Under the pieces are notes generated by a model. It was given only the letters and a program-made list of their open reading frames with translations. It ran no database searches and was not told where the DNA came from. Shown piece by piece: positions 43,043 to 64,000 of a DNA stretch of 64,000 nucleotides. The translations under genes and the position numbers were made by a program. The stretch covers positions 248,001-312,000 of the forward strand of contig NZ_BCNB01000002.1 of assembly GCF_001485575.1 (NCBI RefSeq). The letters run 5' to 3'. Position 1 is the first letter of the stretch. The number at the start of each line of letters is the position of its first letter. This stretch comes from Haloarcula sp. CBA1127 (GTDB lineage Archaea > Halobacteriota > Halobacteria > Halobacteriales > Haloarculaceae).

Positions 43043-43675
43043 ATGGATTCCCGGGAACAGGAACCTGCACAGCAGCACGAGACTGCGACCCAACCAACAG
43101 ATGGCTTCGACGAAGAGAAGGCGCGACGTGGCGCTCGCCTCTTGCTTGAAGCCGCTGGCCGTGACCCCGATTCGGCAGGACTATCGGACACCTGGAGCCG
43201 ACGTGTCCCGGAAATGTTCGAAACGCTGACCGCAGGCTCTCGGCCTGAGTCCAAACCGGTCATGCGCACCTTCGATGCGGAGACCGACGGTCTCATCGTC
43301 AAAACTGGAATTCCACTTCACAGTATGTGCGAACATCATATGCTCCCCTTTCAGGGCGTTGCCCACGTGGCGTACAGACCCGGGGAGGAGATGGTGGGAT
43401 TGTCAAAGCTCATCCGGTACGTCCGGTGGCAGTCACGCCAGCTGACGACACAGGAGACCCTCACGCGAGATATCGCAGTCGGTCTAGCCGATGAACTCGA
43501 CGCGCACGGCGTCGTCGTCGAGATGACCGCAACGCATATGTGCGAAGTAATGCGGGGCATCGAGACGGAGACTGAAACGACGACCAGAGAGCACGTCGGA
43601 ACCATCAGCGAAGCGGACCGCACGCAGTTCAGGGAATCGATTCGACGGTATGCTGGCGGGCCCAACGGCCAGTGA
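43043..43675 (+). CDS. folE: GTP cyclohydrolase I
   Basis: The protein has 210 residues from the ATG at 43043. It matches type I GTP cyclohydrolases, which convert GTP to dihydroneopterin triphosphate, the first step of folate (and biopterin) synthesis. Key features are the zinc ligands in 'IPLHSMCEHHMLPFQGVAHV' (Cys and His), 'GLSKLIRYVRWQSRQLTTQE', and the second zinc cysteine in 'TATHMCEVMRGIE'. Many archaea use MptA (FolE2) instead, so a bacterial-type FolE is notable. The folate and one-carbon genes downstream fit a local demand for tetrahydrofolate. Confidence 0.92.
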   Translation: MDSREQEPAQQHETATQPTDGFDEEKARRGARLLLEAAGRDPDSAGLSDTWSRRVPEMFETLTAGSRPESKPVMRTFDAETDGLIVKTGIPLHSMCEHHMLPFQGVAHVAYRPGEEMVGLSKLIRYVRWQSRQLTTQETLTRDIAVGLADELDAHGVVVEMTATHMCEVMRGIETETETTTREHVGTISEADRTQFRESIRRYAGGPNGQ

Positions 43676-44064
43676 GTACCAATGACCGCGTCCCGTGGGA
43701 CGGAGTTCTGGAGTGAAGTGGTCCAGTCCTCACCACGCGGATGTTCGTCGTCAGTGGACTACTCAAAACTCATAATGTTAAAACTTTGAAGGTCTGAGTA
43801 TTTTGCCTGCTTTCGCCAGTGCCGGACCACAGCCGTGGACCCGACGACGGGTCTCCGTGCTGGAGCAGGTGTTTGCCGCTGCTAAGACTCCGGACAGCGA
43901 CTGCTCACTGGTAATCAGTGCCCCGGTGGTATATAAATCGCCGCAGAACTGTGGTTCCTGCTTCTTTCCCGAAAGAGGCCACGCTCAAAACGGACGATGT
44001 TGAGAGCTATCACCACAAGAGGCGAGAGTACAGTTCGGTCCGCCAGCATACGGGTGAGACCGCG
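43676..44064. other. Gap before the first dehydrogenase gene
   Basis: These 389 bases contain a TATA box at 43929-43939 and otherwise nothing recognised. An in-frame extension of the dehydrogenase frame to 43918 is not supported, because it overlaps the promoter element and has no family-like sequence. If the promoter is used, the mRNA has a leader of about 100 bases, unusual for a haloarchaeon. Confidence 0.45.
43929..43939 (+). promoter_or_regulatory. TATA box upstream of dehydrogenase-ETF genes
   Basis: 'gtatataaatc' is a good TATA match. It lies about 126 bp before the ATG at 44065, so transcription from it would give an untranslated leader. Confidence 0.5.
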
Positions 44065-46599
44065 ATGAGTTCGAACTCGCTGCCGTCAGAGGCGAAGACA
44101 GTAATCATCGGTGGCGGTATCGTCGGAAACAGTCTCGCGTATCACCTCGCCCGGATGGGGCGAGAAGACATCGCAATTCTGGACAAGGGGCCGTTGCCCG
44201 ACCCCGGTGGCTCGACGGGTCACGCCTCGAACTTCCTGATGCCGGTGGAACACTCCAAAGAGATGACCCACCTCACCCGGCGGAGCATCGAGCAATACAG
44301 GGACATGGACACGTTCACCAACAGCGGCGGTATCGAGGTGGCACGCACCGAGGAACGGGTCGAGGAGCTGAAACGGCGCGTTCAGTCGGCGAAGGCGTGG
44401 GGAGAACCGGCAGAGCTGTTGACCCCCGAAGAAGTCGAAGCGCTCGTACCCTACGTCAACACCGACCTCATCAAGGCAGGGTTCTACAGCACCGGCGCCG
44501 GGACGTGCGACCCGCTCCGGGCCGGTGAAGTGATGCGAGCGCGGGCGGACGAGTACACTGACGGGGGTCTGCACGTCTCGCCCAACACCGAAGTGCTCGA
44601 CCTTCACGTCGAAAACGGGTCGATACAGGCGATCGAGACCGACCGTGGGACGATATCGGCCGACGAGGTGGTCATCGCAGCGGGGCTCTGGAGCCCGAAG
44701 ATCGCCGAGATGGCCGGTGTCGATATTCCGCTGACACCGGCAGTCCACCAGATGGTCAGCGTCGGCCCGATTTCCTTCTTCGAGGACTACGAGGGCGAAA
44801 TCTCGTTCCCGGTCGTCCGCGACATGGACACACAGATGTACGAGCGCCAGCACGGGAACGACCTCGAAGTGGGGTCGTATCAGCACCGGCCGATACTCTG
44901 GGACGTCGAGGACATCCCGTCCATTGACGAAGCGCCGCTGTCGCCGACGCAGCCGCCGCTGACCGACGACGCGTTCGAGCAGTCGATGGCCGATGCACTG
45001 GAAATCGTCCCGGAACTCCTCGACGACCCCGAGGCTGGCATCCGCCACGAAATCGACGGCCTGCTTTCGCAGACACCAGACGGTGCGCCGCTTCTGGGCC
45101 CGCTGCAGGATGTCGACGGGCTCTGGTCGTGTGCCGCAATCTGGATTAAGGAGGCCCCGGCCATCGGCGAGGCGGTCGCCCAGTGGATGACGCGTGGGTG
45201 GTCGGATATCGACCTCCACGGGGCCGACGTGAACCGGTTCTACGAGTACGGGACCTCCCGCTCGTTCGTCAAAGACCGGGCCAGCGAAGGCTTCCAGAAG
45301 ATATACGATATCGTCCACCCGGCCGAGCAGTACCAGTCGGCGAGGGAACTCCGGACGAGCCCGTTCTACGAGAAACAGGCCGACCTCGACGCGGAGTTCT
45401 TCGAGGCGGCGGGCTGGGAACGGCCGCAGTGGTACGAGTCGAACAGCGACCTGCTGGACCGGTACGAGGACGAACTCGCCGAGTTCCAGCGGCCGAACGA
45501 GTGGGACTCGCGGTGGTGGTCGCCGATCATCCTCGCGGAGCATCTCCACACCCGCGAACACGTGTCGATGATCGGCGACATGGGCTTCAGCATCTTCGAC
45601 TTCCGCGGGTCGGACGTCGTCGACTACCTCGAACGGATGGCTGTGGGCCGCATCGATGTCGACGTTGACAAGACCGTGTACACGCCGATACTCGCCGAGA
45701 ACGGCGGCTTCATCTCGGACCTGACTATCGCCCGCCTCGGTCCCGAACACTACCGGATCGTCACCGGCGGCGCGGCGGGCGGGTCCGACCGGGCCTGGTT
45801 CGGCGACCACATCCCGGACGACGCCGACGTGACGATGATCGACCGGTCCGAGTCGCTGTGCACCCTGGGCGTCTGGGGACCGAACGCCCGCGATATGGTC
45901 GACAGCGTTACCGAAGAGGACATGTCCCACGACGCGTTCGAGCCGTACACGGCACAGGAAATCACGGTCGGCGAGGTCGATGCCTGGGCGATGCGGCTCT
46001 CCTACATCGGCGAGCAGGGCTGGGAGATTTACGCACCGATGGGTCAGGGCCGCCGGCTCTGGGACGTGCTCTGGGAGGCCGGCCAGGACCACAACGTCCG
46101 ACCGGCCGGCATGGGCGTCTACGGGACGACCGGCCGCCTGGAGAAGGGGTATCGGTTGTTCGGGCACGAACTCGAACTGGAGTACAACCCAGCGGAAGCG
46201 GGGCTAACCTTCCACGGCGTCAAGAACGCCGATTTCATCGGGAAAGAGGCCTACGCCGAGGCTATCGACGAAGAGAATACGGCCACGCTGTGTACGCTGT
46301 CCGTCGACGACCACGCTCCTGAGGGCGGCGAGCGACGCTTCATGCTCGGCAACGAACCGGTCCTCGACGGGAACGGGGATGTTCTGGTCGACGACAAGGG
46401 TCGTCGGTCCTACGTCACAAGCGCCGGGACCGGTCCGAGCGTCGGCGAACATCTTCTCATGGCGTACCTCCCGCAGTCCCACGCCGAGGAGGGGCAGAGC
46501 CTCCAGGTCGAGTACATGGGACAGCAGTATCCGGTGACGGTCGAAGTTGTCGGGAGCCGGCCGCTGTTCGACCCGGAGAACGAGCGCATCAGGAGCTAG
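44065..46599 (+). CDS. Dimethylglycine/sarcosine dehydrogenase-family flavoprotein (copy 1)
   Basis: The protein has 844 residues from the ATG at 44065. The N-terminal half is a DAO-type FAD oxidoreductase with the dinucleotide motif 'VIIGGGIVGNSLAYHLAR' and the segment 'GGSTGHASNF'. Its H53 occupies the place of the histidine that binds FAD covalently in dimethylglycine dehydrogenases. The C-terminal half (from about 430) is a glycine-cleavage T-protein (GCV_T) domain that binds tetrahydrofolate ('GFSIFDFRGSDVVDYLERM', 'SYIGEQGWEIYAP', 'LEKGYRLFGHELE'). The enzyme would oxidise N-methyl groups of dimethylglycine, sarcosine or a related amine and pass the carbon to folate. The ETF genes follow at once, naming the electron acceptor. 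Confidence 0.87.
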   Translation: MSSNSLPSEAKTVIIGGGIVGNSLAYHLARMGREDIAILDKGPLPDPGGSTGHASNFLMPVEHSKEMTHLTRRSIEQYRDMDTFTNSGGIEVARTEERVEELKRRVQSAKAWGEPAELLTPEEVEALVPYVNTDLIKAGFYSTGAGTCDPLRAGEVMRARADEYTDGGLHVSPNTEVLDLHVENGSIQAIETDRGTISADEVVIAAGLWSPKIAEMAGVDIPLTPAVHQMVSVGPISFFEDYEGEISFPVVRDMDTQMYERQHGNDLEVGSYQHRPILWDVEDIPSIDEAPLSPTQPPLTDDAFEQSMADALEIVPELLDDPEAGIRHEIDGLLSQTPDGAPLLGPLQDVDGLWSCAAIWIKEAPAIGEAVAQWMTRGWSDIDLHGADVNRFYEYGTSRSFVKDRASEGFQKIYDIVHPAEQYQSARELRTSPFYEKQADLDAEFFEAAGWERPQWYESNSDLLDRYEDELAEFQRPNEWDSRWWSPIILAEHLHTREHVSMIGDMGFSIFDFRGSDVVDYLERMAVGRIDVDVDKTVYTPILAENGGFISDLTIARLGPEHYRIVTGGAAGGSDRAWFGDHIPDDADVTMIDRSESLCTLGVWGPNARDMVDSVTEEDMSHDAFEPYTAQEITVGEVDAWAMRLSYIGEQGWEIYAPMGQGRRLWDVLWEAGQDHNVRPAGMGVYGTTGRLEKGYRLFGHELELEYNPAEAGLTFHGVKNADFIGKEAYAEAIDEENTATLCTLSVDDHAPEGGERRFMLGNEPVLDGNGDVLVDDKGRRSYVTSAGTGPSVGEHLLMAYLPQSHAEEGQSLQVEYMGQQYPVTVEVVGSRPLFDPENERIRS

Positions 46600-46641: not shown

Positions 46642-47415
46642 ATGGACACCGTAGCCTGTATCAAACGCGTGCCGGACACCGGCGCGAAGATAACACTGAC
46701 CGATGACGAACAGGAGATAGACACGAGCCATCTGGGGTTCACGATATCGCCCCACGAGGAATGCGCCGTTGAGGAAGCGATCCAGGTGGCCGACGACCAC
46801 GACGGGACGGCCACCGTGCTGTCGCTTGGATCGGCGGACACAGAAGAACAGCTCCGGACCGGGCTCGCGATGACGGCCGACGAGGCGACGCTGCTGGAAA
46901 CCGACGGGGAAGAGTGGCGCCCCCGCAAAACGGCGGCCACCCTTGCAGATGCCCTGAGCGACGACTCCGACACCAACCCGGAGTTCGACCTCCTCCTGTT
47001 CGGCAACGAGTCGGCCGACGTGGCGAACCACCAAGTCGGGGTTCGCGTCGCCGAGCGGCTGGACGTGCCGTTCGTCGCAGGTGTGTCAGACTTGGCGATT
47101 GAGGACTGGACAGCCGTCGCCAAACGCGACGTGACCGGCGGGACCGAGGTGTACGAACTCGACCTCCCGGCGGCCGTTGGCGTCAAAGAGGGGCTCAACC
47201 TACCCCGCTACGCCTCGATGCGCGCCAAGATGCAGGCACGCAAACAGTCGATCGGGCGGCAGGACCCGGTCGCCGTTGAGTTCGACGGAGGAATCGAGAA
47301 AGTCCGGTTAGAAGCGCCAGAAAGCACGGAGGGCGCGGCCGAGGTGCTCGGCGAGGGACCGGACGCCGTGCCTGCAGTCGTCGACCTGCTCCGCGACGAC
47401 CTGGAGGTGATCTGA
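46642..47415 (+). CDS. etfB: Electron transfer flavoprotein, beta subunit
   Basis: This 257-residue protein of normal length has the EtfB/FixA start 'DTVACIKRVPDTGAKI', the central 'SPHEECAVEEAIQVADDH', and the signature-like 'VKEGLNLPRYASMRAKMQAR' region. ETF accepts electrons from flavin dehydrogenases and binds AMP in the beta subunit. It lies 42 bp after the dehydrogenase and 2 bp before etfA, so the three form an operon. The ETF-quinone oxidoreductase is not in the window. Confidence 0.93.
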   Translation: MDTVACIKRVPDTGAKITLTDDEQEIDTSHLGFTISPHEECAVEEAIQVADDHDGTATVLSLGSADTEEQLRTGLAMTADEATLLETDGEEWRPRKTAATLADALSDDSDTNPEFDLLLFGNESADVANHQVGVRVAERLDVPFVAGVSDLAIEDWTAVAKRDVTGGTEVYELDLPAAVGVKEGLNLPRYASMRAKMQARKQSIGRQDPVAVEFDGGIEKVRLEAPESTEGAAEVLGEGPDAVPAVVDLLRDDLEVI

Positions 47416-47417
47416 CT

Positions 47418-48386
47418 GTGATACTGACCCTCGTCGAACACGCGGGCGGGAGCCCCGAAGAGTCCTCGCTGGAGGCGCTCACGCTGGCCCGAGAACTGTC
47501 GACGGCGACCGATGCGTCGCTCGAAGCCGTCGCGTTCGGCGCTGAATCGGCGGCACTCAGGGAGGAACTCGGCGACTACGGTATCGAGACAGTCCACCGC
47601 GTCGCCGACGACCGACTGGACACGTACGCACCGGAGGCCTGGGCGGAGAGTATCGCGCAGTTACTCGATACTACGGACACGGACGCAGTCGTCGCCCCGG
47701 GGACTGACCGCGGACAGGAGGTGCTGGCCCACGTCGGTGCCAAGTGTGACCTGCCGATGGCGGCCAACTGTCTCGACGTCGAGGCCGGCGACGTGTACGA
47801 ACTGTCGCGCCAGCGATGGGGTGGTAGCCTCGTCGAACACGCACGTCTTGACGGTGACCCGAAACTACTGACGGCGGCGCCACACGAGTTTTCGCCAGAG
47901 ACGGTGACAGCGACCGCTGAGACAGCAGTCCAGCCGTTCGAGCCGTCGCTTGAGGAGAGCGCGTTCCGGGTCACCGTCGACCGCGTCGAGGAGTCCGGCG
48001 AGACCGGTGTGTCGCTCGGTGAGGCCCGCGTCGTGGTCGGTGGCGGGCGCGGCGTCGGCAGCCCAGAGGACTACGACAAACTGGAGACGCTGGCCGAGAG
48101 CCTCAGTGGAACCGTCGGCGCGTCACGGGCCGCGGTCAACGAGGGCTGGCGACCGCACGACGACCAGATCGGACAGACAGGAACGAAGATCAGCCCGGAC
48201 CTCTACGTCGCCTGTGGCATCAGCGGTGCAGTGCAGCACATGGTGGGCTGCAAGGGCGCGGACAACATCCTGGCGATCAACACCGATCCGGAGGCGGCCA
48301 TCATGCAGAAGGCCGACTACGCCGTCGTCGGCGACCTCCACGAGGTCGTACCGGAACTGAACGACGCGCTCGCCAACGAGCGCTGA
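47418..48386 (+). CDS. etfA: Electron transfer flavoprotein, alpha subunit
   Basis: This 322-residue protein starts with GTG at 47418. The C-terminal FAD-binding domain is well conserved: 'VVGGGRGVGSPEDYDKLETL', 'GQTGTKISPDLYVACGISGA' and 'AINTDPEAAIMQKADYAVVG'. The alpha subunit holds the redox-active FAD of the heterodimer with EtfB. The context makes it the electron acceptor for the neighbouring dimethylglycine dehydrogenase-family enzymes. Confidence 0.95.
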   Translation: MILTLVEHAGGSPEESSLEALTLARELSTATDASLEAVAFGAESAALREELGDYGIETVHRVADDRLDTYAPEAWAESIAQLLDTTDTDAVVAPGTDRGQEVLAHVGAKCDLPMAANCLDVEAGDVYELSRQRWGGSLVEHARLDGDPKLLTAAPHEFSPETVTATAETAVQPFEPSLEESAFRVTVDRVEESGETGVSLGEARVVVGGGRGVGSPEDYDKLETLAESLSGTVGASRAAVNEGWRPHDDQIGQTGTKISPDLYVACGISGAVQHMVGCKGADNILAINTDPEAAIMQKADYAVVGDLHEVVPELNDALANER

Positions 48387-48766: not shown

Positions 48767-49360
48767 ATGACGTTTGCGGACCAGCCAATTGGTGAGTTTC
48801 TCGACGACGTCGCGTCGGGGCAGGTGACCCCAAGCGGCGGTGCAGTCGCGGCCGTCGGCGGCGCGATGGGCGCGGCGCTCTGTGAGATGGTCTGTATCCA
48901 CACTGCCAGCACAGACGGCTCCAGTGTAGAGTCCGGTGAGCTATCGACGCTGGCGGACGCTCTGGCCGACTGCCGGGAACGGCTGCTTGACCTCGCTGAC
49001 GAGGACGCGGTAGCGGTTGACGCGGTTGGGGCCGCGTTCGAGTCCGGAGACGACGCCCGGGTTCAGGCGGCTTCGAAGCGCTCGACGGAGGTGCCACTGG
49101 AGACGGCCGAGGTCTGTCTCGATGTCGTCGAGCACGCCCGCACGGTGACTACGAAGGGGACAGCGGTCGCCGTCCCGGACGCGGCGGTCGGGGCGATGCT
49201 CGCGGCGGCGGCACTACAGGCGTCCGTCTCGACTGTTCGGGCCAATCTCGACATGATAGACGACGAATCATTCGTGGCAGCCATGAAACGGCGGGCAGAC
49301 GAGACAGAAGCGGCCGGCGAAGCGGCGCTCGACGAAGCGGTCGCAAACGCGGAGCGGTGA
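48767..49360 (+). CDS. Methenyltetrahydrofolate cyclohydrolase (FTCD cyclodeaminase-like)
   Basis: The protein has 197 residues from the ATG at 48767. It matches the cyclodeaminase/cyclohydrolase domain (FchA type): 'FADQPIGEFLDDVASGQVTP', the glycine-rich 'SGGAVAAVGGAMGAALCEMV', helical repeats and 'AVPDAAVGAMLAAAALQASV'. Such proteins hydrolyse 5,10-methenyl-THF to 10-formyl-THF (or deaminate formimino-THF). Because it faces a convergent formate-THF ligase and lies beside folate-linked dehydrogenases, the cyclohydrolase role is more likely than histidine breakdown. All-alpha fold, normal length. Confidence 0.85.
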   Translation: MTFADQPIGEFLDDVASGQVTPSGGAVAAVGGAMGAALCEMVCIHTASTDGSSVESGELSTLADALADCRERLLDLADEDAVAVDAVGAAFESGDDARVQAASKRSTEVPLETAEVCLDVVEHARTVTTKGTAVAVPDAAVGAMLAAAALQASVSTVRANLDMIDDESFVAAMKRRADETEAAGEAALDEAVANAER

Positions 49361-49444: not shown

Positions 49445-51190
49445 TCAGAACAGGCCCGAAATGTTCCCGTCCTCGTCGATGTCCATGTCGGCCGCGGCCG
49501 GCCGGGCCGGTAGGCCGGGCATGGTGAGCGCGTCGGCCGTGAGAGCGACCAGGAAGCCCGCGCCGGCGGATGGGTACACTTCGCTGATTTCGAGTTCCCA
49601 GCCCTCCGGCGCACCCTTCTGACTCGCGTCGTCGCTCAGCGAGTGGAAGGTCTTGGACATAACGACCGGGTAATCGTCGAAGTCAAGCTCGTTCATCTGC
49701 TCGATATCGTCGAGCGCGCCGCCGGTGTATTTCACGTCGTCAGCGCCGTAAATCTCGGTCGCGACGGTGTGGATCTTCTCCTTGATGCTGTCCTCGTCGT
49801 CGTACAGCATCCGGAAGTCATCCTCGTTGCTCTCCTCGGTGGCCTCGATGACGTTCTCCGCGAGGTCGACGCCGCCTTCGCTCCCGTCGGAGAAGACGTT
49901 CGACTCTGCGGCACGGACACCGAGGTCCTCACGGCAGTGGTCCAGCACGGCCTGAATCTCCTCGTCGGTGTCGTCCGGGAAGCGGTTGACGGAGACGACG
50001 ACCGGGACGCCGAACTTCTGAAGGTTCGTCGCGTGCTTGTCGAGGTTCGAGAAGCCCGCTTCGACGGCTTCGACGCCGGCTTCGTCGATTTCGTCGTAGT
50101 CGACCGGCCATTGGTCGAGTCCGTGGTATTTGAGCGCGCGGACCGACGCCACCAGCACGACGGCGTTCGGCGTCATATCGCCTTTGCGACAGACCACATC
50201 CATGAACTTCTCGGCTCCCAGGTCGGAGCCGAAGCCGGCCTCAGTGACGAGGTAGTCGCCCATGCCGAATGCGGTCTTGTCGGCGACCAGCGAGTTCGTC
50301 CCGTGAGCAATGTTCGCGAACGGCCCGCCGTGGACCAGTGCCGGCGTCCCCTCGATAGTCTGGACGACGTTCGGTTTGATCGCATCCCGGAGAAGCATGG
50401 TTGCTGGGCCGGTCGCCTCAATGTCCTCGACGGTCACCGGGTCGCCGTCTTCGTCGTAAGCGACGATGATGCGACTGACCCGTTGTTTGAGGTCTCCGAT
50501 ATCGCTGGCCAGACAGAGGACTGCCATCAGCTCGGAGGCCGCCGTCAAAATGAAGCTATCCTCTCGCGGGGTCCCACCGGTTTTCCCGCCGAGGCCGACG
50601 ACTGTCTCCCGGAGCGCGCGGTCGTTCATGTCGATAGCGCGCGGCCAGGAGACGTTGTTGATGTCGATGTCCAGATCGTCGCCCTGCGAGATTTTCGCGT
50701 CAAGCATCGCGGCGATGAGGTTGTGCGCGGAGGTGAGCGCGTGGAGGTCGCCGGTGAAATGGAGGTTGATGTCCTCCATCGGAAGGACCTGCGACCGGCC
50801 GCCGCCTGCCGCACCGCCCTTGACACCGAACACCGGGCCAAGCGACGGTTCCCGGATGGCGATCATTGCTTCCTCGCCGACGTGATTGAGCGTTTGCCCA
50901 AGACCCACAGTAGTTACCGTCTTCCCTTCGCCTTTCGGCGTCGGCGTCATCCCGGTTACCAACACAAGGTTCTGCTCCCTGTTTTCGGCCTGCTCGCGGA
51001 GGCGCTCGATGGCGTGTTGTTTGACTTTCGCGGTGTATTCGCCGAAGTACTGGAGGTCGTCGAGGCCGAGTCCCCACGGTTCGACCAGTTCCCAGATCGG
51101 CTCCATGTCGGTCGACTGGGCGATGTCGTAGTCCGTCGGAATCGGCTCCTGTGTTTCTTCGGTCGCGGATTGCTCATCCTGTGAAGACAT
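49445..51190 (-). CDS. fhs: Formate-tetrahydrofolate ligase
   Basis: The protein has 581 residues from the ATG at 51190. The frame continues a further 103 codons upstream (start at 51499), but that part overlaps the folCP promoter and is unrelated. Motifs: the ATP loop 'TPTPKGEGKTVTTVGLGQTL', 'KGGAAGGGRSQVLPMEDINL', 'TEAGFGSDLGAEKF' and 'VVSVNRFPDDTDEE'. The enzyme links formate, ATP and THF to give 10-formyl-THF, or in reverse makes ATP and formate. Beside demethylating enzymes the reverse, ATP-yielding direction is attractive. A TATA-like 'cattattacg' lies about 25 bp upstream of the start. Confidence 0.95.
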   Translation of the reverse strand: MSSQDEQSATEETQEPIPTDYDIAQSTDMEPIWELVEPWGLGLDDLQYFGEYTAKVKQHAIERLREQAENREQNLVLVTGMTPTPKGEGKTVTTVGLGQTLNHVGEEAMIAIREPSLGPVFGVKGGAAGGGRSQVLPMEDINLHFTGDLHALTSAHNLIAAMLDAKISQGDDLDIDINNVSWPRAIDMNDRALRETVVGLGGKTGGTPREDSFILTAASELMAVLCLASDIGDLKQRVSRIIVAYDEDGDPVTVEDIEATGPATMLLRDAIKPNVVQTIEGTPALVHGGPFANIAHGTNSLVADKTAFGMGDYLVTEAGFGSDLGAEKFMDVVCRKGDMTPNAVVLVASVRALKYHGLDQWPVDYDEIDEAGVEAVEAGFSNLDKHATNLQKFGVPVVVSVNRFPDDTDEEIQAVLDHCREDLGVRAAESNVFSDGSEGGVDLAENVIEATEESNEDDFRMLYDDEDSIKEKIHTVATEIYGADDVKYTGGALDDIEQMNELDFDDYPVVMSKTFHSLSDDASQKGAPEGWELEISEVYPSAGAGFLVALTADALTMPGLPARPAAADMDIDEDGNISGLF

Positions 51191-55502: not shown

Positions 55503-57263
55503 TCAGTCAGTACCCGTTGCCGTGTCGTCTCCCGGGTCGGAGATATCCGTCACCATCTCGTCACCAGAGGTCACGACGTCGACGTCATCCCGTTCGGAGA
55601 GGTCCTGAATCGTTTCTGCGAACTCTTCGGATTCGAGTATCTGGTACTCGTTATCGAGCCCCAGATACACCGTGTAACACATCAGACACAGGATGAGCGC
55701 GAACGGGAGCCCTGTGGTGATTGCGGCCGTCTGGAGCGCCGTCAGCCCGCCGCCGATGAGCAGAATCGACGCGACAAGCCCCTCAGTGAGGGCCCAGAAG
55801 ACCCGCTGTGTTCGCGGAACGTCGTGTTTCCCGCCAGAGGTCAGGTGGTCGATGACCAGTGACCCCGAGTCCGACGACGTGACGAAGAACGTGATGACCA
55901 GCAGGGTCGCCAACAGGCCGCTAATCACGCCAAGCGGGAACTGTTCCAGCAGGGCAAACATCGCGACGGTCTGGCCGACTTCGTTGTACGTCGCCAGCGC
56001 CTGTCCGTTCCCCATCAGTGAATTGAACATCGCGCTGCCGCCGAACACCGACAGCCAGAGCGTCGAGAACAGCGACGGAAGGAACAGGACGCCCAGAACG
56101 AACTCTCGGACGGACCGGCCCTTCGAAATGCGTGCGATGAACATCCCGACGAACGGCGACCACGCGATCCACCAGCCCCAGTAGAACACGGTCCATGCGG
56201 TGGGGGTCCCGTTCGCCGCTTCATTGAGCGTTCCGGTAAAGAACCCGAGCGCGAGGAGGTTCCCGAAGTACGCGCCCAGCCCTTCGGTCCACGTCCCGAA
56301 GATGTACACCGTCGGGCCAACGATAACGAGGAACCCAAGCAGTGCGAACATCAGGTAGAGGTTGAGCGTACTCAGCCGCTTGACACCGCCATCAAGCCCC
56401 GCCGCGACCGAGAGGGTCGCGACGAGCGTAATCCCAGCGATGAGCGCGACTTGCGGCCAGGTTCCTGTCGGGATATTTACCGCGCCGAGCATATCACCGC
56501 CCACGTAGGAGAGTCCCGTGTTGACCTGCGCAACACCGAGTCCCAGCGAGGTTGACAGTCCGAACAGCGTCGCGAACACCGTTACGAGGTCGATGATGTG
56601 GCCCGGCCAGCCGTAAATCCGCTCGCCAAGCAGGGGCCAGAATATCGACCGGAAGGTGAGCGGGAGCCCGCGGTTAAAGGAGAAGAACGCGAGGCCGAGT
56701 CCCACGAGGCCATACACCGCCCACGGATGAAAGCCCCAGTGGAAGAACGTCTGTGCCATCGCGGCGGACGCTGCCGCACCGGTTCCAGCTTCAGCCCCGA
56801 AGAAACTCGGGGGATTCTGGAAGTAATACAGTGGTTCTGAGACGCTGAAGAACATGAGGCCAATACCCATGCCGGCGCTGAACAACATCGCCATCCAAGA
56901 GAAATCACTGAACTCTTTTTCGGCTTCAACGCCGCCGATTCTGATATTGCCGTACTTGCTGAAGGCGAAGTACAGCAAAGTAATGATGAACACGTTCACC
57001 GCCAGCAGGTAGAACCAGCCGAAGGTGTCACCGATGGTGTTGAACAGCCATGTGTACGCAGAGGCTGCTGTGTCGCCCAGCAGTATCGTTATGGCGATAA
57101 ATAACGCAATGATCGCCAGCGCTACCGGGAAGACCACCGGGTGGATATCGAATCCAGCCGCCTGGATGTTCGTGTCACCGGGCTCGCGGTCGGACTCTGG
57201 GTGGAACAGTTCTACCTGGAGCCCGTCCGACATTCCGCCGGTTTGGTCGTCACTATCTGCCAT
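55503..57263 (-). CDS. BCCT family transporter (betaine/choline/carnitine type)
   Basis: This 586-residue protein has 12 transmembrane helices. The family signature 'GMGIGLMFFSVSEPLYYF' is present. Its all-glycine stretch is like that of sodium-coupled BetP; an Asp at this place marks proton-coupled choline carriers. Further motifs are 'FFHWGFHPWAVYGLVGLGLA' and 'YWGWWIAWSPFVGMFIARIS', with the tryptophans that box the trimethylammonium group, and 'FFVTSSDSGSLV'. The termini are acidic and cytoplasmic. It likely imports glycine betaine or dimethylglycine, which links it to the dehydrogenases here and to osmoprotection. Confidence 0.92.
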   Translation of the reverse strand: MADSDDQTGGMSDGLQVELFHPESDREPGDTNIQAAGFDIHPVVFPVALAIIALFIAITILLGDTAASAYTWLFNTIGDTFGWFYLLAVNVFIITLLYFAFSKYGNIRIGGVEAEKEFSDFSWMAMLFSAGMGIGLMFFSVSEPLYYFQNPPSFFGAEAGTGAAASAAMAQTFFHWGFHPWAVYGLVGLGLAFFSFNRGLPLTFRSIFWPLLGERIYGWPGHIIDLVTVFATLFGLSTSLGLGVAQVNTGLSYVGGDMLGAVNIPTGTWPQVALIAGITLVATLSVAAGLDGGVKRLSTLNLYLMFALLGFLVIVGPTVYIFGTWTEGLGAYFGNLLALGFFTGTLNEAANGTPTAWTVFYWGWWIAWSPFVGMFIARISKGRSVREFVLGVLFLPSLFSTLWLSVFGGSAMFNSLMGNGQALATYNEVGQTVAMFALLEQFPLGVISGLLATLLVITFFVTSSDSGSLVIDHLTSGGKHDVPRTQRVFWALTEGLVASILLIGGGLTALQTAAITTGLPFALILCLMCYTVYLGLDNEYQILESEEFAETIQDLSERDDVDVVTSGDEMVTDISDPGDDTATGTD

Positions 57264-57844: not shown

Positions 57845-58288
57845 TCAAATATCGTTGACGCTCATCCGCTGGCTGATGACTGGAATGCTCGACGTCCGGA
57901 CCACTTTATCTGTTGTCCCACCGAGCAGATTTCCGAGTTTCCCGCGGAACGCCGAGCCAAGAACAATCGCGTCCATACCTTCGCCTTCGGCGAACTCGAC
58001 GATCTCTTCGCTGGGCGCGCCCGTTTTGAAGTGCGTTTCGTAGTCGACACCGTGTTCTTCAGCGATAGTCCCGAGATTCGCCAGTACCTCCTCCCCGTAC
58101 TCCCGATACTCCTCGCGCATCTCCTCCTCATCGTCTCTGAGCGCGAGCGCACGGGGTGTGCCCGGCAGATCGATGACGTACAATGCATGGACTGTCGCGT
58201 CGAGTGCAGCGGCGAGTTCGATGCCGTGTTCTGCCCCTCTCCGGGCCTCATCGCTGCCGTCATACGGGACGAGTATGTGGTCGTACAT
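57845..58288 (-). CDS. Universal stress protein, UspA family
   Basis: The protein has 147 residues from the ATG at 58288 (an upstream ATG at 58321 adds 11 unmatched residues). It has the single-domain UspA fold: 'HILVPYDGSDEARRGAEHGI' at the start, 'HALYVIDLPG', 'THFKTGAPSEEIVEFAE', and the ATP-binding 'IVLGSAFRGKLGNLLGGTTD' with a GxxG-9x-G(S/T)-like pattern. Usp proteins bind ATP and help survival under stress. Osmotic stress is a reasonable context beside a betaine-type transporter, but no link is proven. Confidence 0.92.
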   Translation of the reverse strand: MYDHILVPYDGSDEARRGAEHGIELAAALDATVHALYVIDLPGTPRALALRDDEEEMREEYREYGEEVLANLGTIAEEHGVDYETHFKTGAPSEEIVEFAEGEGMDAIVLGSAFRGKLGNLLGGTTDKVVRTSSIPVISQRMSVNDI

Positions 58289-58379: not shown

Positions 58380-59642
58380 TTACAATGCGCCGCTTTTCGC
58401 TTCCCGTGCAACGTTATCAACGGGATAGCCCGCGTCACGTATCGCTGTGATGATCGTCTGTGCGTGCTCGGCACCGCTCGTCTCGACGTTGAATACGAGA
58501 TACGCCTCCCCGATTTCGAGATTCTCGACGGACCGTTCGTGCCGAACGTCGTGGATATTGGCCCCTTGCCGGGCGATAACGCCCGATATCTCCTCCATCA
58601 CACCCGGCTGGTCGTCGATCCGAACCCGGAGCTGAAGGAGCTGCTGGCGCTCCGTGAGCGCATGGATGAGAACTTCTCGCATCTGTGTCATATCGAGGTT
58701 CCCGCCACAGAGCAGCGGCATCACCGTTTCACCCGACACGTCAAGGCTGTCACTCAGTACGGCAGCCACAGAGGCGGCCCCGGCACCTTCTACGACCTGC
58801 TTGGCCCGTTCCATCAACAGGAGAATCGCCTGTGCGATATCGGTGTCCGAAACCGTCACGACCTCATCGACGTTTGCCTCGATAATGTCGAGCGTCGTCT
58901 CCGAGATACCGCCCGTAGCGATACCGTCGGCGATGGTGTCGACTTCGTCAAGCACGACCGGAATACCCTTGTCGAGACTTTCATGCACCGTTTCAGCGCC
59001 GGTCGCCTGAACGCCGACGACCCGCGTCTCGGGCGAGAGGTGCTTGATTGCGGTCGAGACACCGCTGATAAGTCCACCGCCTCCGATGGGGACGATGACT
59101 GTGTCGACATCGGGGCAGTCGTGGTACATTTCCGTTCCGAGGGTCCCCTGTCCGGCAATGATGTCCAGGTCGTCGTAGGCGTGGACGAACTCAGCGTTGG
59201 TCTCCTCGACGACCGCTTTGGCGTGGGACATCGTCTCCTGAAAGTCGTTGCCGACCAGTTCGACGCTTCCGCCGTAGGACCTTGTGGCGTCGATCTTGGC
59301 CTGTGGTGCGTTTTCCGGCATGAAAATCGTCGACTCTGCCCCGCATTTCGTCGCGGCAAGGGCGACGCCCTGTGCGTGGTTCCCGGCGCTGGCAGCGACG
59401 AAGGAGTCAACGCCGTCGGCGACATCCTGCGAGATTTTGTTGTACGCGCCTCTGGTTTTGAACGACCCTGTCCACTGGAGGTGCTCCATCTTCAAGTACA
59501 CCTCGGCGTCAACGAACCCACCAAGGGACGAGCTCCGTTCGACCGGCGTCTTCTTTACAACTGTGTCGTCGTCCAGGCGTTCGCGGGCTCGTTCGATGTC
59601 CGCGTATGTGACGGGCAGGGTGTCCGATTCGGTTTGTGTCAT
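58380..59642 (-). CDS. ilvA: Threonine/serine ammonia-lyase with ACT domain
   Basis: This 420-residue PLP enzyme deaminates threonine to 2-oxobutyrate, or serine to pyruvate. The PLP lysine lies in 'GSFKTRGAYNKIS'. 'SAGNHAQGVA' and the phosphate-binding 'IVPIGGGGLISGV' follow. A C-terminal ACT domain ('RVRIDDQPGVMEEISGV', about residues 328-410) gives allosteric control and is typical of the shorter, catabolic-type enzymes. It lies 57 bp from the next dehydrogenase gene on the same strand. With demethylation making glycine and methylene-THF, serine formed from these could be deaminated here; isoleucine synthesis is the alternative. Confidence 0.92.
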   Translation of the reverse strand: MTQTESDTLPVTYADIERARERLDDDTVVKKTPVERSSSLGGFVDAEVYLKMEHLQWTGSFKTRGAYNKISQDVADGVDSFVAASAGNHAQGVALAATKCGAESTIFMPENAPQAKIDATRSYGGSVELVGNDFQETMSHAKAVVEETNAEFVHAYDDLDIIAGQGTLGTEMYHDCPDVDTVIVPIGGGGLISGVSTAIKHLSPETRVVGVQATGAETVHESLDKGIPVVLDEVDTIADGIATGGISETTLDIIEANVDEVVTVSDTDIAQAILLLMERAKQVVEGAGAASVAAVLSDSLDVSGETVMPLLCGGNLDMTQMREVLIHALTERQQLLQLRVRIDDQPGVMEEISGVIARQGANIHDVRHERSVENLEIGEAYLVFNVETSGAEHAQTIITAIRDAGYPVDNVAREAKSGAL

Positions 59643-59698: not shown

Positions 59699-62251
59699 TC
59701 ATCTGGTGATGCGCTCCCGAGCCGGATCGAACAGTGGCTCGTCACGCACCGTCGCGTCGTAGGTCTCGCCCTCACACTGTATCTGAACCGACGTGCCGGC
59801 TTCGGCGTGTTCGGTCGGAACGTACGTGTACGCGATTGACTCGCCGAGACTGTAGCCGTAGTTCCCGGCCTGCACGTAGCCGATCGCGTCGCCGTCTTTC
59901 AGCACCGGCCGCCCACTCAGCATGATGTCCGTCGAGTCGTCGAGTGTGAGCGGCGTGATCTTGCTGTCGATGCCCTCCTCGCGTGCGGTCTCAAGTGCCT
60001 CCTTGCCGATGAATTCGGTGTCCATGTCCACGGCGAAGGGCAGCCCGGCCTCGAAGGGGTTCGAGTCCGTGTCGATGTCCGTCCCCCAGAGGCGGTAGCC
60101 TTTCTCTAACCGCATGGAACTGAGCGCGCCGCCGCCCATCGGCCGAACCACAAGATCCTCGCCGGCGTCCTGCAGTGTCTCCCAGAGTCGCTGGCCGTAC
60201 TCCGTCGGCGCCCAAAGCTCCCAGCCGAGTTCACCGACGTACGAAACTCGCAAGGCGATGACCGGCACGTCCCCGACGTACATCTGCTTGGCGCGGAAGT
60301 ACGGGAAGCCATCGTTGGTCACGTCTGCGTCAGTACATCGCTGGAGGAGGAGCCGCGCGTTCGGTCCCCAGAGGCCGATCGTTGACTTCGCGCCCTCCTC
60401 AACATGGACCGATACGGTCGCCGGAGCCTCGTCTTCGAGGTGGCCGCCGTGGATGCCGGGGGAGTTCCCACCGCCGGTCGTCACCATGAACTCCTCGTCG
60501 TCGAGTTTGACGACTGTGATGTCCGCGAGGATGCCGCCGCCCTCGTTCAACAGCAGCGAGTAGCGGACCTGTCCAGTTTCGAGGTCCATATCGTTGCTAC
60601 AGACCCGCTGGAGGAACGCCTGGCTCCCCTCGCCCTCGACCATGATCGAACTGAACGTCGTCATGTCGAACATCGACACCTTGTCGCGGGTGTGGAGATG
60701 CTCGGCGGCCTCGATCTTTGAGCGGTTGATTCCCTGCCAGCCGTCCTGATCGGGAATCCGGTCCTCGTACTTCTCAACGAGGTCGGCGTTCGACTCGTAC
60801 CACTGTGGCGTCTCCCAGCCGCCGCTCTGGTAGAACTCCGCGCCAAGTTCCTTCTGCTGGTGGTAGAATGGACTCGTCCGGAGTGTGCGGTGGTCGTCGG
60901 GCTGCCACCGGGGCTCGACGATACTGTACACCTGCTCGTAGCGCTTGGCCCCGCGGTCGACGAAGTAGTCCTTCTCGCCCGCGTGGGGTTCGAACCGTCG
61001 GACGTGAATGCCGCCGGTATCGACCGGCCCGGACGGCAGGCGCGGAACGCCGTTCTCCATCCACTCCGCGAGGATGCGGCCGTACCCCCCGGAGTGGGTC
61101 CACCAGATGGCCAGCCCTGTCCAGAGACCGTCGACCTGTGCTGTCTCGCCGACGGCCGGCATCCCATCGGGCGTAAAGACGAAGATACCGTTCTCAGTGG
61201 CCTCGTATTCTACGTCCTGTGTCGCCGGCAACAGTTCGTCGAAGGCCTGCTTCGCAGACTTGTCCCGGCCACGGTGGGTTGGCGTCTCCCAGTGTTCTTT
61301 CGTGAACCCTCTCACTGATGCCTGGTGTTCCTCGGTGTTTTTCCCCATCGCCTCGGGGTCGACCGAGAGCGTCTCGTGGTTGTACGACCCCATCCCGAGC
61401 GCGTCGCCGTGGGTCCGGAAGTACAGCGAGTGGTCCTGGTCGCGACCGACCGGCTGGTGTGGCCCTTCGCTCATGTACTCCGCGATAGAGCGGTCCCCCG
61501 GAACGTCCAGCCCAGTCGTGTTGTCGCCGACAGAGGATTCGACGCCGGCGAGTTCCTCCATCGGCTCGGTGACGACGTACTGGTGCTCAACCGGGGCAAT
61601 CGGAAGGTCGAGCCCGGCCAGCTGGCCGGTCTGGTAGCCCCAGTTGTTCGTCGCAATAACGGCTCGCTCACAATCGATTCGACCCTGATCGGTCTCGATA
61701 GCGTTGATTTCGCCCCCCGAAACATCCAGGTCCGTGACCTCCGTGTTCCCGTAGAACGACGCTGAAGAGTGCTCCATGTACCACTGGAGCGCGGCGATAC
61801 CGTCGACGCGACCGTCGGTCGGCGAGTAGTAGCCACCGAGGATTTCGTCCTCGTCGACCAGCGGGAGGTGCTCGGTGACTTCCTCGGGCGAGAGCAACTG
61901 CGGTTCCGGAAGCCCGTAGGAAGTTGCCCACTCGACGCGCCGACGGAGGAAGTCCATGCGCTCCTCGCTGCGGGCCACTTCGATGCCGCCGACCTCGTCG
62001 TAGACACCGGCGTCGGAGAGGAGCCGACTGGTGTAGTGCGCGGTCTTCGTCTGTATCTTCGACGGCGACGTCTGGAACATTATTCCGGGGGCGTGGACCG
62101 ACGAGCCGCCGGTGACCGGGAGCGGTCCCTGGTCGATGACGACAACGTCCTCCGCGCCGAGTTCCGTCAGGTGATACGCGACGCTACACCCGACGGCCCC
62201 GGCACCGATAACAACAGTATCCGCCCGAGACGGGGGAGTCTCTGTGCTCAT
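59699..62251 (-). CDS. Dimethylglycine/sarcosine dehydrogenase-family flavoprotein (copy 2)
   Basis: This 850-residue protein has the same two-domain plan as copy 1. The FAD motif is 'VVIGAGAVGCSVAYHLTE'. The flavin-linking region is 'GGSSVHAPGIMFQTSPSK' with H53, closer to bacterial dimethylglycine oxidase ('HAPGL' with 'FQT') than copy 1 is. The middle has 'FVFTPDGMPAVGETAQVDGL'. The GCV_T part has 'SVHAEEG'-like features ('VSVHVEEGAKSTIGLWGPN'), 'VSYVGELGWELWAPTEYGQR' and 'MRLEKGYRLWGTDIDTDSNP'. It should demethylate an N-methylglycine with tetrahydrofolate as carbon acceptor. It is in tandem with copy 3, 216 bp downstream of it. Confidence 0.88.
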   Translation of the reverse strand: MSTETPPSRADTVVIGAGAVGCSVAYHLTELGAEDVVVIDQGPLPVTGGSSVHAPGIMFQTSPSKIQTKTAHYTSRLLSDAGVYDEVGGIEVARSEERMDFLRRRVEWATSYGLPEPQLLSPEEVTEHLPLVDEDEILGGYYSPTDGRVDGIAALQWYMEHSSASFYGNTEVTDLDVSGGEINAIETDQGRIDCERAVIATNNWGYQTGQLAGLDLPIAPVEHQYVVTEPMEELAGVESSVGDNTTGLDVPGDRSIAEYMSEGPHQPVGRDQDHSLYFRTHGDALGMGSYNHETLSVDPEAMGKNTEEHQASVRGFTKEHWETPTHRGRDKSAKQAFDELLPATQDVEYEATENGIFVFTPDGMPAVGETAQVDGLWTGLAIWWTHSGGYGRILAEWMENGVPRLPSGPVDTGGIHVRRFEPHAGEKDYFVDRGAKRYEQVYSIVEPRWQPDDHRTLRTSPFYHQQKELGAEFYQSGGWETPQWYESNADLVEKYEDRIPDQDGWQGINRSKIEAAEHLHTRDKVSMFDMTTFSSIMVEGEGSQAFLQRVCSNDMDLETGQVRYSLLLNEGGGILADITVVKLDDEEFMVTTGGGNSPGIHGGHLEDEAPATVSVHVEEGAKSTIGLWGPNARLLLQRCTDADVTNDGFPYFRAKQMYVGDVPVIALRVSYVGELGWELWAPTEYGQRLWETLQDAGEDLVVRPMGGGALSSMRLEKGYRLWGTDIDTDSNPFEAGLPFAVDMDTEFIGKEALETAREEGIDSKITPLTLDDSTDIMLSGRPVLKDGDAIGYVQAGNYGYSLGESIAYTYVPTEHAEAGTSVQIQCEGETYDATVRDEPLFDPARERITR

Positions 62252-62467
62252 GTATCTCGTTTGGGACTGTTTCTGTCACAATCTTAAATACACCGGTGAG
62301 TAGACCCGCTTGTAGAAGAGATATCCGGTTAGAGCGGTCAATTACCGTCATTTCGCCCGGTATTGGAACGTCTGCTATCCGGCGGCGGGGAGAATAAACG
62401 GCGATGCGGGACTGAACCACAGCGTGTTACAATTGCGATAGAACCAGCGACGGGTCCCAGACCGCTC

Positions 62468-64000
62468 TCAGACCAGCGGTTCCTCGCGGACGGTTGCGTC
62501 GTACCGCTCGCCCTCGTAGAGGATTTCGACGCTGGTCCCGGGTTCAGCGTACTCGGGTGGCAGATACGTGTAGGCCACGCAAGCGCCGACGGTGTAGCCG
62601 TACTCGGCGCTGTGGAGGTAGCCGATGGTCTCGTCGCCGTCGAGGACCGGTTTGTTATCGAGCACAACAGCGTCCTCGTCATCGAGGGTCAGACAGGCTA
62701 CCTTGTGGTCGATGTTGTCACCGTCGGCGGCTGCTGCGACTGCCTCCTTACCGATGAAGTCGGTTTCGAGGTCAACGGCCCATCCGAGTCCGGCCTCGTA
62801 GGGATTGTGCTCCGTGTGGAGGTCCTTCCCCCAGAGTCGGAACCCTTTCTCGATTCGCAGCGAATTCAGCGCACCGTTGCCGTATGGACGAATGCCGTAC
62901 TCCTCGCCGGCCTCCATTATGTGCTCCCAGAGGCGTTCGCCGTATTCCGACGGCGTGTAGAACTCCCAGCCGAGTTCACCAGCATAGGAAACGCGGAGTG
63001 CAGTCACGGGGATGTTCTTGACGAAGAACTGCTGGCTCGTGAAGAACGGGAAGGCGTCGTCGGAGAGGTCGATGTCGGTGACCTTCGAGAGGACTTTCCG
63101 GGCGTTCGGGCCGGTACAGACCATCGCCGCCAGACTGGAGGTCACGTCGTTCACGACCACGTCGTCGGGGGACTGCTCGCGCACCCACGCGACGTGGTTG
63201 TTCCCGACTTCGCGACCCGTCGTCAGCAGAAGGTAGCGGTCCTCGCCGGTCCGCGTGACCGTGATATCCGCCCGGACGCCACCGCCTTCGTTGCACATCA
63301 GCGTGTACTTCACGTCACCCACGTCAATGTCCATGTCGTTCGTACAGAGGTACTGGACGAACTCGCCGGCGTCGCTCCCGATGACCTCCATTTTGTTGAA
63401 AGAAGTCATGTCGTGGAGGCCGACGTTGTTACGCACGTTCAACGCCTCGGCTCCCTCGATTGGTGACCAGTACTTCGCTTCCCAGCCCCCGCGGTCGGGA
63501 ATCCGGTCGCCGTACTCCGCTAGCAGGTCGGCATTGGAGTCGAACCAGTGTGGTTCCTCCCAGCCGGCCTCGGCCCACAGCTCGGCGTCGTACTTCTTGT
63601 GGGTGTGGTACATCGGGGTTCGGCGGATATCCCGCTGTGTGTCGGTCCAGACCCACTTGGGGTGCATGATGTTGTAGACAATGCGGTACTCCTCACCGCC
63701 GATGTCCCGAGCGAAGTCCCAGCTGCCTTCGTGCTCGTCGAAGCGGTTCACGTCACAGTGGGCGAGGTCAATCGGGCCGGATGGGAGCCGCGGAACACCG
63801 TGTTCCATCCACTCGGCGAGCGCCTTGCCGGCACCGCCGGCGTGCGTGACCCAGATGGCCGCTGCCGTCCAGAGGCCGTCGTACTCCTGCACGGGACCCA
63901 TCACGGGGAGTCCGTTCGGCGACTCCGCGAACATCCCGTTGTACTTGTGTTCGAGTTCCTTGCCGGCCGTCGCGGGCAGCAGTTCGTCGCTGGCCTGACG
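62468..64000 (-). CDS. Dimethylglycine/sarcosine dehydrogenase-family flavoprotein (copy 3, 5' end outside window)
   Basis: Only the last 510 codons lie in the window; the frame stays open to the right edge, so the FAD-binding N-terminus is missing from view. What is seen covers the end of the flavin domain ('FAESPNGLPVMGPVQEYDGL') and the whole GCV_T part: 'GLHDMTSFNKMEVIGSDAGE', 'VSYAGELGWEFYTPSEYGER', 'SLRIEKGFRLWGKDLHTEHN' and 'GLGWAVDLETDFIGKEAV'. It ends at 'REEPLV', about 10 residues earlier than copy 2. It is paralogous to copies 1 and 2 and probably has a related but different N-methyl substrate. Confidence 0.86.
   Translation of the reverse strand, partial: RQASDELLPATAGKELEHKYNGMFAESPNGLPVMGPVQEYDGLWTAAAIWVTHAGGAGKALAEWMEHGVPRLPSGPIDLAHCDVNRFDEHEGSWDFARDIGGEEYRIVYNIMHPKWVWTDTQRDIRRTPMYHTHKKYDAELWAEAGWEEPHWFDSNADLLAEYGDRIPDRGGWEAKYWSPIEGAEALNVRNNVGLHDMTSFNKMEVIGSDAGEFVQYLCTNDMDIDVGDVKYTLMCNEGGGVRADITVTRTGEDRYLLLTTGREVGNNHVAWVREQSPDDVVVNDVTSSLAAMVCTGPNARKVLSKVTDIDLSDDAFPFFTSQQFFVKNIPVTALRVSYAGELGWEFYTPSEYGERLWEHIMEAGEEYGIRPYGNGALNSLRIEKGFRLWGKDLHTEHNPYEAGLGWAVDLETDFIGKEAVAAAADGDNIDHKVACLTLDDEDAVVLDNKPVLDGDETIGYLHSAEYGYTVGACVAYTYLPPEYAEPGTSVEILYEGERYDATVREEPLV

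Follow-up and report, generated by a model that had tools for sequence, protein, structure and literature searches.

Which enzyme could take the first methyl group from glycine betaine in a haloarchaeon, and where would the carbon go? The question is raised by a 64,000-nucleotide stretch of Haloarcula sp. CBA1127, hereafter the window, which spans positions 248,001 to 312,000 of contig NZ_BCNB01000002.1 (C2; 385,856 bases of a 4.36-Mb genome in 9 contigs). Its last 21 kb holds genes for three dimethylglycine dehydrogenase-family proteins (DMGDH1 to DMGDH3), both subunits of an electron-transfer flavoprotein (ETF; EtfB and EtfA), an FchA-type methenyl-tetrahydrofolate (THF) cyclohydrolase, formate-THF ligase (Fhs), folate synthesis enzymes, and a BCCT-family carrier. 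An initial annotation had read these genes as a self-contained route from betaine or dimethylglycine to glycine, reduced ETF, formate, and ATP. Profile searches with Pfam and NCBIfam models and their cutoffs recovered every gene that it named, and its interpretation was largely right, if incomplete and misplaced with respect to the ETF, self-containment, and the first step. In our judgment, the locus is probably a plasmid-borne catabolic island for methylated glycines. This reading draws on gene identities, catalytic residues, linkage, co-occurrence, and an exchange with GbcA-like genes, from which we infer the substrates, the directions of Fhs and MetF, a serine branch, and the betaine activity. 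A further proposal is that a DmdA-like protein encoded beyond the window is a THF-dependent glycine betaine demethylase, which exchanges with GbcA in haloarchaea and, together with second folate genes, could make betaine an ATP-yielding one-carbon (C1) fuel; we hold this to be an even call.

A DmdA-like candidate for the first betaine methyl

The route from betaine to glycine was initially drawn with no enzyme for turning betaine into dimethylglycine; the best candidate is encoded immediately beyond the end of the window. Beyond DMGDH3, the gene order is an AstE/AspA-like protein, a 394-aa protein, MetF, a DmdA-like GcvT-family protein, dihydrofolate reductase (DHFR), and a Bat-type helix-turn-helix (HTH) regulator. 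The top NCBIfam model for the DmdA-like protein (458 aa; HAH_RS18290 on the Haloarcula hispanica plasmid pHH400) is DmdA (NF009133), with a score of 248 bits that falls under the cutoff of 410. Among PDB structures, DmdA (3tfh) scored 150 bits, with GcvT close behind at 141 bits. The DmdA residues D108, E204, and Y206 (3tfh) are kept as D142, E238, and Y240; the role of D108 is one that we presume. A Trp, W171 in alignment numbering, is described as key for dimethylsulfoniopropionate (DMSP) in DmdA in the available part of PMC7487153, and we equated it with W197 of 3tfh through the E-x-Y spacing. Phe231 replaces this residue and is invariant in the protein's own sequence and 26 relatives (27 of the 42 sequences found were aligned). 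These comparisons suggest that the protein probably works as DmdA does, transferring a methyl group onto THF, yet is not a DmdA member. Betaine would be its best-supported substrate, with DMSP or another onium compound less likely. The predicted structure (mean predicted local distance difference test score, pLDDT, 58) was too poor for fold comparison. A second DmdA-like paralogue at 63-70% identity occurs in ten genomes of the order (G165, G287, G216, G188, G260, G203, G185, G254, G138, and G115).

Other first steps for betaine are BHMT, the Rieske enzyme GbcAB, and corrinoid MtgB/MttB-type enzymes. Profile searches of the Haloarcula sp. CBA1127 genome returned no match to PF00848 (Ring_hydroxyl_A, GbcA), PF02574 (S-methyl_trans, BHMT), or PF06253 (MTTB). 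The empty PF00848 result is meaningful because this model recovers six of six haloarchaeal GbcA-like Rieske open reading frames (ORFs) above its cutoff.

Co-occurrence and exchange across the order

We surveyed 293 genomes of the order from 87 genera for genes encoding the FAO_M domain of the dehydrogenases, Fhs, FchA, and the DmdA-like protein. Fhs was counted above its cutoff, which drops two genomes (G086 and G237). For the DmdA-like protein, hits at ~30-34% identity were dropped as ordinary GcvT and those at 63% or more were kept, the best per genome being at least 73%; the genes of G076 and G222 were read through one stop codon. FAO_M was present in 101 genomes, Fhs in 99, FchA in 51, and the DmdA-like protein in 70. 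Fhs and FAO_M occurred together in 69 genomes, Fhs alone in 30, FAO_M alone in 32, and neither in 162 (Fisher p 2e-19). At the genus level, 29 of the 87 genera have both, and one without the other appears in 11 (Fhs) and 8 (FAO_M). Where both are present, Fhs lies within 20 kb of FAO_M in at least 55 of the 69 genomes (at least 40 of 54 outside Haloarcula, and at least 22 genera including it); for two random genes, we estimate a chance expectation of ~1%. Conservation of the neighborhood in other haloarchaea, proposed at the outset as a check, was thus found as Fhs-FAO_M linkage across genera and as a collinear core within Haloarcula.

The DmdA-like protein sharpens this pattern. All 70 genomes that encode it have FAO_M and 67 have Fhs, so that it is found in 67 of the 69 genomes that combine Fhs with FAO_M. 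Conversely, Fhs occurs in just 2 of the 31 FAO_M genomes that lack the DmdA-like protein, and the DmdA-like protein in none of the 30 Fhs genomes that lack FAO_M. The pairing of Fhs with dimethylglycine enzymes is therefore nearly restricted to genomes that encode the DmdA-like protein. At least 53 of the 70 genomes (at least 38 of 55 outside Haloarcula) have the DmdA-like gene no more than 20 kb from an FAO_M gene. In stretches of ~20 kb around FAO_M, MetF was found at 30 of 49 DmdA-like-positive loci vs 0 of 31 negative ones, a difference to be expected if 5-methyl-THF arises by the DmdA-like route alone. The corresponding counts are 24 of 49 vs 0 of 31 for Fhs and 19 of 49 vs 2 of 31 for FolC-FolP (FolCP).

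FAO_M genomes without the DmdA-like protein frequently carry a Rieske gene in its stead. We searched for the Rieske motif in ORFs of 281-519 aa, covering all 31 DmdA-like-negative genomes and 64 of the 70 positives (all except G292, G015, G089, G139, G185, and G267). One stretch was used per genome, and one FAO_M locus where there were several; stretches were ~20 kb (5 of 80 falling more than 3 kb short), but Haloarcula and G187 were covered over 40 kb and Haloarcula sp. CBA1127 over 100 kb. A Rieske-motif ORF lay near FAO_M in 25 of 31 negatives vs 4 of 49 positives outside Haloarcula (p 3e-11), and by genus in 11 of 13 vs 3 of 23. With 14 Haloarcula and G187 added, the positives with a Rieske ORF number 8 of 64 (p 9e-11). 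Three genera include genomes of both kinds: in g37, a Rieske ORF was found in 3 of 4 genomes without the DmdA-like protein and in none of the 3 that have it; g59 gave 1 of 1 and 0 of 1, respectively; and in g26, all 5 genomes without the protein had a Rieske ORF, but so did G057, which encodes it. GbcA (glycine betaine monooxygenase) was the top NCBIfam model for all six Rieske ORFs scanned. Such an exchange, of a GcvT-family protein for a Rieske oxygenase, provides a natural control for function assignment. Four of the 14 Haloarcula genomes (G083, G201, G230, and G271) have a Rieske gene between DMGDH2 and DMGDH3 alongside the DmdA-like gene, so these strains might remove the first betaine methyl in either of two ways.

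The exchange bears on the possibility that the conversion of betaine to dimethylglycine is unencoded here, so that only dimethylglycine or sarcosine is used and the DmdA-like protein does something unrelated. That the three known betaine demethylase families have no match in the genome would fit, but strict nesting of the DmdA-like protein with FAO_M and its exchange with GbcA-like genes would not, nor would two carriers for which a betaine BCCT model is the best family, both under its cutoff. We regard this alternative as quite improbable.

Several observations weigh against betaine demethylation by the DmdA-like protein and against the wider route. No GcvT-family enzyme that depends on THF is known to us to demethylate a quaternary ammonium compound, and the substrate of DmdA is a sulfonium. 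The co-occurrence statistics, genus tallies aside, treat genomes as independent. The GbcA-like scores (103-145 bits) are far under the GbcA cutoff of 670, six of the 31 DmdA-like negatives have no Rieske gene in the stretch, and exclusivity is loose, as 4 of the 14 Haloarcula genomes and 4 of the 49 genomes outside the genus carry both genes. Among the matches listed, a link between FchA and the other genes of the route is confined to Haloarcula and G127: for the 37 FchA genomes of other genera, these place FchA at 20 kb or less from Fhs as well as FAO_M in G127, and from FAO_M alone in G187, so a constant partnership of FchA with the route is unsupported outside Haloarcula except in G127. Some relatives keep other company as well. 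A paralogue with 66% identity, carried by a plasmid of Haloarcula halophila, sits beside an MFS carrier and sulfur genes and therefore probably acts on another substrate. Roseobacter relatives (37% identity) adjoin OsmC, enoyl-CoA hydratase, and acyl-CoA synthetase genes. Finally, the available part of PMC3102087 reports that betaine gave no growth enhancement in H. walsbyi and no growth of H. utahensis.

The nearest plasmid-borne bacterial relatives of the DmdA-like protein share 35-37% identity with it, and plasmid genes annotated as DmdA ~31%. One relative at 35% lies within a MetF-GcvT-PurU-FolD cluster, which favors the proposed route, but the differing neighbors of the bacterial relatives suggest that the family at large acts on more than one substrate. 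In Haloarcula, the substrate could be DMSP or a different onium osmolyte; the island would then be a general system for THF-linked methyl oxidation, in which dimethylglycine use and this demethylation have just the C1 drain in common. The best characterized relative is DmdA itself, by the scores and retained residues given above; the roseobacter relatives stand beside acyl-CoA genes, as DMSP genes do; and BCCT carriers are able to take DMSP. Yet the Trp that is key for DMSP is Phe in this protein and in all 26 aligned relatives, and no DmdBCD-like acyl-CoA genes are listed for positions 190000-285000 of the Haloarcula hispanica plasmid pHH400, whose gene table is incomplete. Moreover, an enzyme for DMSP need not nest within FAO_M genomes (70 of 70) or swap with GbcA-like genes. 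Action on DMSP or a related osmolyte is therefore, in our assessment, unlikely.

Proposed fate of the methyl carbons

With betaine as the substrate, the island supplies a candidate for nearly every step and predicts that methyl groups would pass through THF to formate, ATP, and CO2. BCCT carriers would import betaine and/or dimethylglycine. From betaine and THF, the DmdA-like enzyme would produce dimethylglycine and 5-methyl-THF by transfer of one methyl group; the other two methyls would be removed oxidatively by the dimethylglycine enzymes and passed to THF, yielding sarcosine, glycine, and 5,10-methylene-THF. Methyl-THF could be brought to methylene-THF by MetF working in the oxidative direction, methylene-THF to 10-formyl-THF by FolD and FchA, and 10-formyl-THF to formate and ATP by Fhs in reverse. 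Formate is probably oxidized onward to CO2, by FdhF with a NuoF-like partner. Glycine and methylene-THF may exit as serine, which IlvA, a candidate for this step, would convert to pyruvate. Second copies of FolCP, FolD, and DHFR together with PabAB, and in some strains FolE, would enlarge the folate pool.

All three dehydrogenases combine DAO, FAO_M, GCV_T, and GCV_T_C domains in one chain. Their closest PDB match is the Arthrobacter dimethylglycine oxidase (DMGO; 1pj5) over mammalian dimethylglycine dehydrogenase, which reached at most 340 bits with DMGDH2. DMGDH2 and DMGDH3 are 49% identical, and DMGDH1 shares 36-37% with either. A motif check and 1pj5 alignments inspected by eye found the flavin-motif His and the positions aligned to DMGO H225, Y259, and D552 kept in all three; we take the His to belong to the flavin site, H225 and Y259 to the active site, and D552 to folate binding. 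In other genera, EtfB adjoins DMGDH1-type genes at all 18 matched places and the other types at 0 of 91 (0 of 55 and 0 of 36). ETF is therefore most likely the acceptor of DMGDH1, from which electrons would pass to EtfBA; DMGDH2 and DMGDH3 may use O2 or another ETF. On this distribution, EtfBA serving all three dehydrogenases is rejected as a core feature. DMGDH1-EtfB-EtfA is found in Haloarcula sp. CBA1127 and 3 of 13 Haloarcula relatives and is absent beside the core in 10 of 14. Reduced ETF would thus be an optional product of the route, tied to DMGDH1, and no part of its core.

The claim of a self-contained route does not hold for the window alone, as MetF, the DmdA-like protein, DHFR, FolD, PabAB, and FdhF lie beyond its edge. 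The MetF gene encodes a distant homologue (PF02219, 54.7 bits against a cutoff of 24; NCBIfam, 71 bits against 294). About 35 kb past the window are FolD, PabB (411 bits; cutoff 409), PabA, a second BCCT-like protein, a NuoF-like protein, and the formate dehydrogenase FdhF (828 bits; cutoff 666), in agreement with the annotation of pHH400. For the second BCCT-like protein, a betaine BCCT model is the best family, with scores under both cutoffs. FolD and an ETF-quinone oxidoreductase are missing from the window, as first noted, yet both have candidates elsewhere: FolD on the same replicon, and on contig C6 (2856441) a FixC-type protein with a C-terminal ferredoxin-like stretch, whose Fe-S domain scored 21.4 bits (Pfam cutoff 24). 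FolD, FolCP, and DHFR each have one further copy on C6, the other FolCP in an 842-aa frame. These copies rule out the island folate genes as the organism's sole ones; the second copies and PabAB on the same replicon agree with the proposed dedicated folate supply. The megaplasmid would thereby couple a folate-hungry catabolism with second folate gene copies. Linkage across genera, and the presence of FolD, PabAB, and the formate dehydrogenase gene on this replicon, likewise support a linked candidate route from N-methylated glycines to methylene-THF, formate, and ATP.

The direction of Fhs decides whether this route could yield energy. If Fhs ran forward, it would provide biosynthetic C1 units (formate assimilation, purines, and serine), with the dehydrogenases adding methylene-THF and no energy pathway. 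The second folate genes and IlvA suit anabolic traffic as well, 30 of the 99 Fhs genomes lack FAO_M and so point to other Fhs roles in the order, and the available part of PMC3102087 infers formate transporters beside folate genes in H. marismortui. Fhs and FchA are, however, single copies in the genome, both on C2, and both are absent jointly with FAO_M and the DmdA-like protein in 2 of 17 Haloarcula genomes (G227 and G289; G292 lacks FchA only), which indicates that the cell can do without them. A formate dehydrogenase gene shares the replicon and lies near Fhs in G244, and FdhF-like genes at 41-42% identity lie beside Fhs in G112, G128, G165, G234, and G243, an arrangement that fits Fhs working toward formate and ATP. 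A purely biosynthetic role is thus rather unlikely. IlvA is encoded in the dehydrogenase stretch at 29 of 31 DmdA-like-negative and 27 of 49 positive loci of other genomes, which fits glycine and methylene-THF leaving as serine and pyruvate.

The catabolic reading has precedents. In SAR11 (Ca. Pelagibacter ubique), metF, folD, fhs, and fdhF are described as a drain for betaine and DMSP methyls, with a dimethylglycine dehydrogenase; of its GcvT-like proteins without an assigned substrate, one lies beside metF, and another near betaine-transport genes was suggested for betaine metabolism (PMC3160333, available part). As in SAR11, metF, folD, fhs, and fdhF occur together in Haloarcula, all on C2. 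Unlike SAR11, where bhmT is used, this genome has no PF02574 match, and its genes form a single linked island on an archaeal plasmid, to which genes for folate synthesis, IlvA, and BCCT also belong. The Arthrobacter dimethylglycine oxidase cluster of Meskys et al. (2001) is reportedly linked with folate C1 genes and releases formate by PurU. That cluster has in common with the island the flavin/THF fusion enzymes of DMGO type, to which all three Haloarcula proteins are closest in the PDB. The island differs from it by Fhs in the place of PurU, which would save an ATP, and by the addition of EtfBA, the DmdA-like protein, and folate synthesis genes.

With DmdA (3tfh; PMC7487153, available part), the candidate enzyme has in common the GcvT family, the folate residues, an expected 5-methyl-THF product, and a MetF partner; it differs in its ~31% identity to plasmid DmdA, the Trp-to-Phe replacement, and the company of dimethylglycine enzymes. 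In the available part of their paper, Anderson et al. (2011; PMC3102087) placed dimethylglycine oxidase-like genes near BCCT in four haloarchaea, including H. marismortui, and raised possible betaine use. The enzymes, carriers, and suggested substrates match ours; the initial claim of betaine or dimethylglycine use is thus consistent with print, its general idea being already there, and the C1 drain, folate genes, DmdA-like protein, and Rieske alternative go beyond that account. Among the open-license papers listed by our searches, we recognized no description of this island or of a THF-dependent betaine demethylase, and the available parts of PMC13280387, PMC2329653, and PMC3261824 contain nothing on either. 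Betaine is a widespread compatible solute of bacteria (PMC2329653, available part). The island may therefore be an archaeal plasmid-borne form of a known pathway with one potentially new enzyme function, a specific candidate for the first betaine step, a reaction without an assigned enzyme. Betaine should be plentiful in haloarchaeal habitats; if the proposal is true, archaea whose osmolyte is KCl, not betaine, could use it as a C1 fuel that yields ATP. The accession AEM59334.1, which appears in PMC7487153, is perhaps the H. hispanica DmdA-like protein, an assumption that we make from its prefix.

Gene content and setting of the island

The island genes are collected in Table 1. The starts of DMGDH1, FchA, Fhs, FolC-FolP, and Usp were set by comparison with pHH400.

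Table 1. Genes of the island in window coordinates, with FolD given by its position on contig C2
Feature	Position	Strand	Support
FolE, GTP cyclohydrolase I	43022..43675	+	NF006826 162.8 bits (cutoff 162); PF01227 175 bits
DMGDH1, DAO + FAO_M + GCV_T + GCV_T_C	44065..46599	+	Longest ORF from 43918; 1pj5 483 bits
EtfB, electron-transfer flavoprotein beta	46642..47415	+	Profile match
EtfA, electron-transfer flavoprotein alpha	47418..48386	+	Profile match; starts 2 bases past EtfB
FchA-type methenyl-THF cyclohydrolase, FTCD_C alone	48767..49360	+	PF04961 141 bits, above Pfam cutoff
Fhs, formate-THF ligase	49445..51190	-	NF010030 800 bits (cutoff 652)
FolC-FolP fusion, folylpolyglutamate/dihydropteroate synthase	51507..53906	+	TIGR01499 308 bits, TIGR01496 313 bits, both above cutoff
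BCCT-family carrier	55503..57263	-	TIGR00842 474 bits (cutoff 408)
Universal stress protein (Usp; UspA family)	57845..58288	-	PF00582 108 bits; absent from the initial annotation
IlvA-type threonine/serine ammonia-lyase	58380..59642	-	TIGR01127 440 bits (cutoff 379); absent from the initial annotation
DMGDH2, dimethylglycine oxidase/dehydrogenase family	59699..62251	-	1pj5 598 bits
DMGDH3, dimethylglycine oxidase/dehydrogenase family	62468..64000, on to window coordinate 65038	-	1pj5 589 bits; complete in the neighboring stretch
FolD	C2:347299-348192		555 bits (cutoff 477)

The FchA-type protein scored 112.7 bits with the NCBIfam FchA model NF045657 (cutoff 275); it may alternatively be a formimino-THF cyclodeaminase. 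The top model for the BCCT carrier in the window is betaine uptake (NF047988; 517 bits, under the cutoff of 650). Usp and IlvA lie between this carrier and the dehydrogenases DMGDH2 and DMGDH3. All 13 Haloarcula relatives compared have FchA, Fhs, FolCP, BCCT, Usp, IlvA, DMGDH2, DMGDH3, and AstE as a group, with the order kept in 12, and Usp adjoins the carrier in every one. In G244, FchA has moved, and FdhF, FolD, PabB, PabA, and the second BCCT gene are within 14 kb of Fhs and FolCP. FolE is a variable part of the island, found in this genome and 6 of the 13 relatives within the stretches compared.

The 394-aa protein past the window (L008:9504-10688; window coordinates 66504-67688) is encoded near dimethylglycine enzymes in many haloarchaea and has no match in Pfam or NCBIfam. 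It evolves fast, with 39-41% identity in G187 and G244, where its neighbors share 56-91%. A structure model (pLDDT 66) has an N-terminal beta domain, long low-confidence links, and two helical HTH-like stretches, and the sequence contains a conserved ETVRRYM motif. On a weak reading of this model, the protein is probably a regulator rather than a pathway enzyme.

The 21-kb region matches pHH400 at 90% DNA identity over 96% of its length and a 410,554-base H. marismortui plasmid, presumably pNG600, at 93% over 75%; the window is therefore part of a Haloarcula megaplasmid. By sequence, the 386-kb C2 is a replicon homologous to the megaplasmid pHH400. The G+C content is 50-55% at window positions 8000-30000 vs 58-66% in the island, which suggests a separate history for that part of the replicon. 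At 40833-42832, two neighboring genes encode proteins of 230 and 436 aa, both hypothetical proteins on pHH400; the former has no NCBIfam match and the latter none in NCBIfam or Pfam. An archaea-specific SMC-related gene at 36110-38760 faces a gene named rod-determining factor RdfA in the pHH400 annotation, and this pair is present on pHH400 too, directly upstream of the island.

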